A stretch of 64,000 nt of DNA from contig NZ_CP119809.1 in the NCBI RefSeq assembly GCF_029338395.1, positions 124,001 to 188,000 on the forward strand, written 5' to 3'. Below are positions 14,146 through 40,033 of this stretch, piece after piece. Both the position numbers and the translations under genes were made by a program. This DNA is from Halorussus caseinilyticus. GTDB lineage: Archaea > Halobacteriota > Halobacteria > Halobacteriales > Haladaptataceae. The notes under the pieces are model-generated. The model was not told the DNA's origin. It saw only the letters and a list, made by a program, of their open reading frames with translations, and did not search any database. Numbering within the stretch: the stretch's first letter is position 1; each line of letters begins with the position of its first letter.

Positions 14146-14228
14146 CGGAATCCGGGAGCGCGGAGCATCCGTTCTCCGGCGCATTTCGAGGTCCGTTCCG
14201 TCGGCGAGCGCCCGGCGGATTTTCTGTT

Positions 14229-14390
14229 CGGCGCGTGCTGGCGCGGCGGCTCGTCGCCGCGCCAACCGCGCGAGGGGTGAGGACCGCAGGCCCGTGGCCG
14301 AGGACCGCAAGCGGCTGGGGAGGTGTGAGGCCCTCGCGGTGCGGAGCGGTTGCGGTAACTCCTTGGCTCAAGTCTGAAGCTAGCTTCTGG
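14229..14390 (-). repeat. Dispersed structured intergenic element, copy A
   Basis: Read on the minus strand this copy runs from GCTAGCTTCAGACTTGAGCC through CCGCAACCGC, CTCACACCTCCCCAG and CCCCTCGCGCGG to a GCGCGCC-rich end. It contains a 10-bp hairpin, TGGCGCGGCG (14239-14248) with CGCCGCGCCA (14255-14264) and a 6-base loop. It lies between the YgfZ-like gene and the winged-helix gene, both minus strand. Three other copies are at 23550, 24290 and 39803. Confidence 0.85.
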
Positions 14391-14469
14391 CCGACCGTTC
14401 TACTGTCGCCAGCAACTCGCCAAACGTCACCCTCCCGAGAATAGTCCTTCCTCTTCCGAAGAAATTTCA

Positions 14470-23380: not shown

Positions 23381-23937
23381 ACCAGATTTGTGGGTCTCGT
23401 CGGGTGAAAAGGATTGCGGAGTCGGCGAGGGGTCGCGCGAGCGTTCGACGCTGGACGACGACCACCGCCGACGCTACGGACTTTCTCGGCGTCTCGTGCG
23501 GCGTATCGGGCCGTGAACGGCGGCCGGGGCGTGCCCCAATCTTACTCCACCCGGCGCGCGCGGGCGCGCCTCCGTGGCGCGCCCATCCGCGCGAGGGAGT
23601 CGGCCGCCTCCGGCGGCCGACGAGGTTGGGGAGGCGTGAGGTCCGTGCGGTGCGGTCTGATTGGCTCACGGAGTAGCTAGCTTCCCAGATACTCCTGCGG
23701 TCGCAGTCGCGGTGCCGTCGCAATGCGGTCGCGGTCGGTGGTCACGCAGTCCCGAACGAGGTGTTGCGCTGTCGCGGTCTCTGAACATCTCGCGAACCTC
23801 CGAACGACTACCTTTTCAATGCTTAAGGAATTATGTAGAGTTATCAAACAAATACTACTATTGCTTAGGGAAACATGAAGCCGTCTCGCGACGTTCGCCC
23901 GCGGGGTTTTTGACCGCCCGCCCGGAACCGACAGGTG
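23381..23937. other. Divergent spacer holding repeat copy B
   Basis: The 557-base interval between ribE and the small membrane gene has no credible gene. It contains the dispersed element copy B at 23550-23684. The stretch 23790-23880 is AT-rich. Confidence 0.7.
23550..23684 (-). repeat. Dispersed structured intergenic element, copy B
   Basis: On the minus strand it runs GCTAGCTACTCCGTGAGCC, AATCAGACCGCACCGC, CTCACGCCTCCCCAACC, TCCCTCGCGCGGATGGG, ending CGCGCGCGCCGGG. It has two perfect hairpins: GGGCGCGCC/GGCGCGCCC (23562-23584, 5-base loop) and GTCGGCCGCC/GGCGGCCGAC (23599-23621, 3-base loop). It faces copy C in inverted orientation across the small membrane gene. Confidence 0.85.
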
Positions 23938-24183
23938 ATGAACAAACCGGGCATCATCGGTACGCTCCAACTCGCGGCGACGCTCGTCTTCGCGCTTCCG
24001 GTCGGTCTGCTCGGCGTCCAGTTCCTCCTTGATGGCGAGACCATCCTCGGCGGCGGATTCCTTGTCGTCGCGGTCATGATGGTCGTGTTAGAGGAGTACC
24101 TGACGACGCCGACCGACGTTCCCGGCGCGGTGGCGCGCAAGACGGTCGGGAAAGTGGCGAAGACGCCGGACGACGAGGAGTGA
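23938..24183 (+). CDS. Small two-helix membrane protein, 81 aa
   Basis: A haloarchaeal conserved-type protein with two hydrophobic segments at about residues 7-28 and 37-53 (LQLAATLVFALPVGLLGVQ; GGGFLVVAVMMVVLEEYL) and a short charged C-terminus (KTVGKVAKTPDDEE). Function unknown. It is the only gene between two inverted copies of the dispersed element. I use the ATG at 23938 instead of the GTG three bases earlier. Confidence 0.8.
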   Translation: MNKPGIIGTLQLAATLVFALPVGLLGVQFLLDGETILGGGFLVVAVMMVVLEEYLTTPTDVPGAVARKTVGKVAKTPDDEE

Positions 24184-24520
24184 GTCACGCCGTTTCGGCG
24201 ATTTTGTCGGTGGCTTCGACTGCTTGCGTCGGGATGGCTAGCGTTTCTCGAAGGGAAGCGACGGCAACGACAGAGGCGATTTAAAGAGAGCTAGCTACAG
24301 GCTTGAACCAATCAGACCGCACGGCACCGCAACCGCGAACCTCACACCTCCCCAACCGCCTGCGTTGCTCGGCCTACGGCCTGCGCTACTCGTCCCTCGC
24401 GCGGATGGGCGCGACCACTCGCGGGTCGCGCTCGCGCGCGCCGGGTGGTCGGTCGAAGTAGTTCGTGCGTCCGGTCGAAATCGAGAGAAAGGGGTCGCAG
24501 TGCGCTACGCTACCCGCGTC
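24184..24520. other. Convergent spacer holding repeat copy C
   Basis: The 337 bases between the small membrane gene and the helicase stop hold copy C of the dispersed element (24290-24446) and nothing else I can identify. Confidence 0.7.
24290..24446 (+). repeat. Dispersed structured intergenic element, copy C
   Basis: Plus-strand order: GCTAGCTACAGGCTTGAACC, AATCAGACCGCACGGC, CTCACACCTCCCCAACCGCC, CGTCCCTCGCGCGGATGGG, ending CGCGCGCGCCGGG. Hairpin arms GCGCGACC (24409-24416) and GGTCGCGC (24424-24431) pair perfectly, and a smaller hairpin GGCC-TAC-GGCC lies at 24371-24381. Confidence 0.85.
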
Positions 24521-39802: not shown

Positions 39803-40033
39803 GCTAGCTTCAGGCTTGAACCGATGAAGACCGCACCGCAACCGCGACAGCAGACACCGGAGTAACGCCAGAGACTAGCTTCAGGCTTGAACCGATGAAG
39901 ACCGCACCGCACAGCACCGCGCCTCGTCCTCCCCAACCTCCTGCGCTTCTCGGTCGCTCCGCTCCCTGCGATGCTCGTCCCTCGCGCGACGATGGCGCGA
40001 CACGCTTCGCGGTCGCGCCAGCGCGCGCCGGGT
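39803..40033 (+). repeat. Dispersed structured intergenic element, copy D, with internal duplication
   Basis: Same order as copy C: GCTAGCTTCAGGCTTGAACC, GATGAAGACCGCACCGCA, CGTCCTCCCCAACCTCC, CGTCCCTCGCGCG, ending CGCGCGCCGGGT. The first 37 bases (39804-39840) are repeated exactly at 39875-39911. Hairpin arms TGGCGCGAC (39993-40001) and GTCGCGCCA (40012-40020) pair perfectly. Confidence 0.85.

Follow-up and report, generated by a model that had tools for sequence, protein, structure and literature searches.

Four copies of an intergenic element lie in the window, by which we mean the whole 64,000-nucleotide stretch of Halorussus caseinilyticus DNA analyzed here, at the places given for them in a preliminary description of the sequence. 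They were matched by R1, a covariance model of the 3′ core of the element derived from 27 copies in the same genome (alignment A1), at 39928-40031 (+), 24347-24444 (+), 14228-14323 (-) and 23551-23634 (-), with E-values of 1e-16 to 2e-6, the next match having an E-value of 0.11. Since the window copies were among the sequences from which R1 was built, the independent evidence for the family comes from the rest of the genome. The region 39803-40033 had been taken as a single copy; a full copy (D) does lie there, at approximately 39874-40032, whereas positions 39803-39840 repeat the 5′ end of that copy in tandem, a duplicate that also appeared as the second 100% match of the 5′ part (C1:163804-163840). 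The features concerned are the following.

39874..40032, plus strand: full element copy D (DNA search with copy D, model R1)
39803..39840, plus strand: extra 5′-end copy (GCTAGCTTCAGGCTTGAACCGATGAAGACCGCACCGC), a local tandem duplicate ahead of full copy D
39928..39938, plus strand: invariant block CCTCCCCAACC of copy D
39939..39977, plus strand: hairpin 1 module of copy D, with direct-repeat-like arms CTGCGNTNCTCG
39978..39988, plus strand: invariant block TCCCTCGCGCG of copy D, whose CGCG supplies the 5′ strand of the outer hairpin 2 stem
39989..40020, plus strand: inner stem-loop of hairpin 2 of copy D, TGGCGCGAC...GTCGCGCCA
40021..40032, plus strand: 3′ terminal block GCGCGCGCCGGG of copy D, the 3′ side of the outer stem
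24290..24446, plus strand: full element copy C
23550..23684, minus strand: full element copy B, hairpin 1 of which is a perfect GGCCGCC palindrome
23685..23895, no strand: extra DNA 5′ of copy B, missing or much shorter in six relatives
14228..14390, minus strand: full element copy A
14391..14469, no strand: 5′ flank of copy A, missing from empty orthologous sites

Copy C is contained in the gap 24184-24520 between genes for a small membrane protein and a UvrD-like helicase, and ~3.6-4 kb of extra DNA, a variable island beside copy C, occupies the orthologous gap in the genomes G013, G009, G014, G003 and G016.

The Halorussus element is ~160-180 bp long, with copies ~72-89% alike, and has a fixed order of parts. 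Its 5′ boundary (GA|GCTAGCTW) is a purine-rich flank with a final A followed by GCTAGCT(T/A), after which comes one of two variants, CAGGCTTGAACCAATCAGACCGC or CTGCCGACTCC..., and then a variable run of ACCGC-type units. The block CCTCCCCAACC is separated by hairpin 1 (25-75 nt) from the block TCCCTCGCGCG, which leads into hairpin 2 and the terminal block GCGCGCGCCGGG, the last often trailed by GTGGAAA. Hairpin 2 is in two parts, a nearly invariant outer stem (GCGCG/CGCGC) and a variable inner stem (TGGCGCGAC/GTCGCGCCA in copy D). Hairpin 1 is a perfect palindrome in some copies (e.g., copy B and L021), and in others its arms carry CTGCG-N-T-N-CTCG twice, with the two N positions covarying. 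The original report of shared blocks and a covarying terminal hairpin holds, but there are two hairpins rather than one, and hairpin 1 covaries as well. The helix of hairpin 1 has an unusual pattern (e.g., at 39939-39977 and 24358-24392 of the window) in which a pyrimidine mismatch recurs at every third base and the other positions covary.

The covariation was examined in a cross-genus alignment of 70 sequences (A2) with 500 shuffles as the control. Paired cells made up 85.7% of A2 versus 74.1% in the shuffles, cells changed on both sides of a pair numbered 125 versus 41.6, and the covariation score of 0.294 (0.103 when shuffled) was reached by none of the 500 shuffles, so that a chance effect of GC-rich sequence does not explain the complementarity that had been noticed in the four window copies. 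Covariation was also lost when partners were slid by 1-3 columns, a control that would not suffice alone because the structure was picked on A2 itself. Pairs in hairpin 1 were apparent with no structure fitted: left3-right1 was observed 98 times versus 42 expected, left10-right7 78 versus 31.5, and left8-right5 66 versus 36. When arms were swapped between 76 cross-genus copies, own arms folded better than those of other copies in both hairpin 1 (-12.8 versus -8.1 kcal/mol) and hairpin 2 (-18.2 versus -11.3 kcal/mol). Within the Halorussus genome the corresponding values were -21.7 versus -16.9 kcal/mol for hairpin 2, with a small difference for hairpin 1 (-9.7 versus -7.8 kcal/mol), and hairpin 2 keeps at least seven uninterrupted pairs in all 49 own copies with recognizable blocks. 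Folding energies favor hairpin 2 whether the strand is RNA or DNA, though for sequence of such high GC content they are not extreme, and the RNA folding z-scores of the four window copies (0.0 to -3.6) show that energy alone is not decisive. Hairpins that are specific to each copy and yet remain complementary point to a mobile or structural element that acts as a folded single strand.

Four copies in 26 kb had been reported and are indeed present, but the family is far larger. A covariance-model search of the genome, as proposed in the preliminary description, gave at least 129 matches to R1 at E ≤ 0.01 (150 of 11,357 candidates scored), which correspond to ~125 distinct copies, four matches being counted twice where the ends of the circular contigs overlap. 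(The replicons C1 and C2 have untrimmed overlapping ends, and matches repeat at offsets of ~3,446,397 bp in C1 and ~383,291 bp in C2.) A plain DNA search with copy D found about forty strong matches in the genome. Density in Halorussus reaches ~1 copy per 30 kb.

With genes predicted by codon usage, 85 of the 86 copies fetched with their flanks were intergenic. As had been remarked for the window, placement relative to genes varies, and all four arrangements occur among 85 copies (in the frame of the element, 27 +/-, 21 -/-, 20 -/+ and 17 +/+), so the fixed position or orientation of an intrinsic terminator or promoter was not found. Gaps between convergent genes are enriched, making up 28 of the 85 gaps that hold an element and 22 of the 168 others, and the nearer gene tends to be on the 3′ side (median distance 114 bp versus 179 bp on the 5′ side). 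These features could be those of a chromosome-structure site kept by the host and working as double-stranded or extruded DNA, such as a cruciform, a replication or transcription boundary or a protein-binding site. Strictly intergenic placement, the excess between convergent genes and the retention of orthologous sites in Halorubrum (below) agree with such a role; we nevertheless judge it unlikely, given that no replication-strand bias was found along the replicon, that orientation to genes is not fixed and that one congener (G008) is wholly without the element.

This genome (G000) has seven distinct close pairs of copies, separated by 713-1046 bp, in every one of which the 5′ ends face each other; pairs arranged in this way also occur in G002, G007, G010, G050 and G176, with one opposite pair in G012 (L236). 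The pairs in G000 (window positions 23685-24289 and six other places) flank one or two small ordinary genes. A composite transposon bounded by two outward-facing copies was considered and rejected because the enclosed ordinary genes differ between pairs; the conservation of the gene between copies B and C in relatives without elements also counters it.

Comparison with ten relatives that are syntenic over parts of the window revealed gain or loss at individual sites. At site A the element is absent from G013, G009, G004 and G016, reduced to a relic in G006 and present in G007. At site B, six relatives have no element and a much shorter gap, versus the element plus ~200 bp of 5′ flank in the window. 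Site C lacks the element in G004 and G006, with a possible relic in G007. Between two convergent genes that nearly abut in the window, G007 has a full copy and G003, G014 and possibly G004 have fragments. Copy number within Halorussus ranges from none in G008, where neither R1 nor the broader model R2 found a copy, through four in G013 to over 100, and each of five congeners searched singly has at least 54. These relatives differ by 10-15%, their empty sites are unalignable base by base, and none of them revealed a recent insertion with exact ends or a target duplication. Because orthologous sites differ in presence or absence and copy number is patchy, a mobile reading is favored in Halorussus.

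The family extends well beyond Halorussus, and its core occurs in other haloarchaeal families, as a search of related genomes, likewise suggested at the outset, made clear. An exact pattern scan found at least 118 stretches in haloarchaea of many genera (on over 100 contigs of other haloarchaea), the genera among the matches listed including Halorubrum, Halorussus, Haladaptatus, Halosimplex, Haloterrigena, Halococcus and Haloparvum. The broader model R2 was built because R1, being tuned to Halorussus, missed Halorubrum; it recovers six of seven Halorubrum copies in an 80-kb stretch at E < 0.001. Both models matched many genera of one order, and the 29 genomes matched by R2 in a phylum sample of 296 all belong to one order. 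Plasmids searched with a Halorubrum-like query composed by hand yielded no match. Taken together, these results describe a real, widespread, structured and dispersed family of non-coding elements that is apparently undescribed: no earlier description was found in the openly readable literature or in Rfam, where nothing matched at the gathering score and the weak matches are attributable to chance.

At ~250-300 bp the Halorubrum form is longer, and it includes a third hairpin (CCAAAGCCCCAGCCG...CGGCTGCCCCTTTGAG) on the 5′ side. Halorubrum xinjiangense has seven copies in 80 kb, approximately one per 11 kb, and for most of those examined other Halorubrum species have a copy at the orthologous site. 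Because most sampled sites are common to the species, movement in Halorubrum is slow, and the copies are perhaps long-term residents with a host role. Between orthologous copies the blocks and the 5′ hairpin are preserved, but hairpin 1 has often been swapped whole for another perfect palindrome. In this Halorussus genome, similarity in hairpin 1 is unlinked to similarity in hairpin 2 (Mantel r = -0.03, p = 0.77), an independent assortment that could partly reflect saturation of distances. We infer that whole replacement of hairpin 1 and the unlinked similarities fit an exchange of modules between copies.

Upstream of 21 of 34 full Halorubrum copies is the motif TTATAA, which in 14 of those 21 stands exactly at -37 (37 nt before CCAAAG), where 0.0065 per 60 nt would be expected from the background. 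The motif may be a promoter, and because this TATA-like box has a fixed upstream distance, the reading of the elements as RNA keeps some probability. It need not be the element's own promoter, however, because a second TTATAA sits 13-14 nt past the 3′ end in 12 of 20 copies. The flanking TTATAA motifs were also considered as a target-site duplication and rejected, their similarity within a copy being no higher than between copies. A multicopy family of structured RNA genes, in which copies are transcribed and the two or three hairpins form a small RNA or a protein-binding RNA, would account for the covariation across genera, the position of the Halorubrum TTATAA (the right place for an archaeal promoter) and the tendency of the hairpin 2 loop towards ACGAG- or ATGAA-like sequences. 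It is nonetheless a rather doubtful account of the family as a whole: no AT-rich box was found upstream of the 5′ end of Halorussus copies, genomes of one genus hold anywhere from 0 to over 100 copies, Rfam holds no match, and the downstream TTATAA means that the box is not necessarily a promoter. Small intergenic RNAs of Haloferax resemble the element in location and comparable length, and the element is possibly transcribed in Halorubrum, but each of the RNAs listed there comes from a single gene, and most are restricted to one species (PMC3956466).

The 5′ side of the element is distinctive. Locus-specific tandem repeats, often of 24-34 bp, usually end within ~10 bp of GCTAGC, and at a score of at least 20 they occur on the 5′ side of 18 of 85 copies versus three of 85 on the 3′ side and four of 168 other gaps. 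The same bias holds in two other species (10 of 40 copies versus one of 40 on the 3′ side), and longer 5′ flanks account for little of the excess. Extra 5′ ends, like that ahead of copy D, mostly adjoin cores, in tandem or head to head, and are rare elsewhere. Many Halorubrum copies (L258 and L272 regions) are preceded by an extra partial 5′ unit, CCTCCAAAGCCCCAGCCG-TTATAAA-GGATCGGCGGCGAACA, which is a duplicated 5′ end. Transduction of 5′ DNA from a source locus was rejected, as the flanks share only other element fragments, bar one small flank family. Template switching between arms in replication could itself keep hairpins perfect in decaying repeats by quasi-palindrome correction, making the compensation unselected; it would also yield local tandem and inverted duplicates of 5′ ends such as those observed, as well as whole-hairpin replacement. 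We regard this explanation as very unlikely, since correction leaves unexplained why arms are kept across many genera alongside invariant unpaired blocks, and hairpin 2 has an outer stem that hardly varies.

No known engine for movement is at hand, because neither a Y1 transposase, in this and several other copy-rich genomes, nor a reverse transcriptase, in the genus, was found. Y1 transposase (PF01797) had no match in the copy-rich Halorussus genomes G000, G001, G002, G010 and G016, and reverse transcriptase (PF00078) had none in 19 genomes, none in the genus, although positive controls were detected. Dependence on RAYT/IS200 was rejected on the first count and SINE-like retroposition on the second. 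TnpB genes are present in the genome, as they are in the element-free G008; however, element-like ends were absent at 24 TnpB loci (R2, best E-value 0.52) and four Y1 loci, so that a link to TnpB and omega RNA was also rejected. A single tnpB (C1:3221416) adjoins an element (3221945), which by our estimate is as expected by chance.

Among the closest known systems are the palindrome-associated transposable elements (PATEs) of Haloquadratum walsbyi, of which there are 177-194 per strain and which are mobile though intact tnpA is nearly absent (PMC3119063). PATEs are likewise haloarchaeal, too short for a transposase gene, without terminal inverted repeats, numerous and provided with palindromes near their ends, beyond which their sequence is variable (PMC3119063); the element here has a near-end palindrome, no terminal inverted repeats and no coding capacity. 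It differs in that PATE palindromes resemble IS605-type ends, whereas no relation to IS605 was found here, in that homogeneous PATEs are over 90% identical (PMC3119063), above the range of the copies here, and in its covarying arms and its two or three hairpins embedded in invariant blocks. Descent as a non-autonomous IS200/IS605 derivative (a PATE), or as an omega-RNA-like sequence tied to TnpB, would suit the near-terminal palindromes, the lack of inverted ends, the haloarchaeal host and the TnpB genes in the genome, but we hold it to be highly improbable: a search of the genome for Y1 transposase came up empty, the 24 TnpB and four Y1 loci have no element-like ends, and G008 has TnpB with no element.

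REP, BIME and REPIN sequences share with the element an intergenic, dispersed, hairpin-forming and non-autonomous character and over 100 copies, but REPs are 20-40 bp long, carry a GTAG or CGTC tag and need a Y1-type RAYT (TnpA-REP) (PMC3733652, PMC3116915), whereas the element here is 160-300 bp long. The GTAG or CGTC tag was absent from the foot of the hairpin, the element feet being CCCTCGCGCG/GCGCGCGCC. MITEs are similarly short, non-coding, dispersed and intergenic, but the ends of the element are GA|GCTAGCTW and GCGCGCGCCGGG, which are not terminal inverted repeats, and no target-site duplication was found among the divergent relatives compared. Because the tested defining features fail (IS605-like ends, tag plus RAYT, inverted ends and reverse transcriptase, respectively), we do not assign the element to the PATEs, REPs, MITEs or retroposons. 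We know of no REP-like elements with covarying modular hairpins from archaea.

The preliminary description had proposed either a mobile non-autonomous element or a repeated family of structured RNAs, which is supported by the dispersal of the copies, the structure-preserving changes and the absence of a fixed orientation to genes; the checks it suggested on further copies, covariation and related genomes all came out in its favor. We lean, with slightly more belief than doubt, towards reading the family as short, non-autonomous, PATE- or REP-like dispersed elements found across haloarchaea that spread in trans by way of a folded strand and are reshuffled by gene conversion. The conserved unit would be a strand folded into two strong hairpins, or three in Halorubrum, with invariant single-stranded blocks between them, and an enzyme acting in trans would copy or move the element by reading the folded strand and those blocks, because of which hairpin shape rather than hairpin sequence would be selected. 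The invariant blocks would let resident copies trade hairpin modules by gene conversion, and repeated local duplication, by template switching or slippage, would readily occur at the 5′ end. It is possible, rather than probable, that the family is a new class of structured mobile element in archaea, one that spreads with neither Y1 nor reverse transcriptase, whose hairpin cassettes recombine between invariant blocks and whose tandem repeats are made by a process linked to the 5′ end. The missing engine, the exchange of hairpin cassettes and the one-sided tandem repeats each pose a testable question on how structured repeats move and evolve. At the densities found in Halorussus and Halorubrum, such a repeat shapes the intergenic DNA of haloarchaea, and studies of haloarchaeal small RNAs, promoters or terminators will encounter it.

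Two minor observations concern the flanks. The 5′ flanks of four G000 copies (C1:2299276, 2291265, 639883 and 2520734) share ~100-126 bp at ~74-83% identity, in either orientation, and the shared flank is either a further small repeat or an older fragment of the element. On the other side, several copies (e.g., L161, L198 and L191) have an AT-rich motif similar to AACAAAAATATTGCTCARAGAAACG at 15-60 bp beyond the 3′ end of the element.
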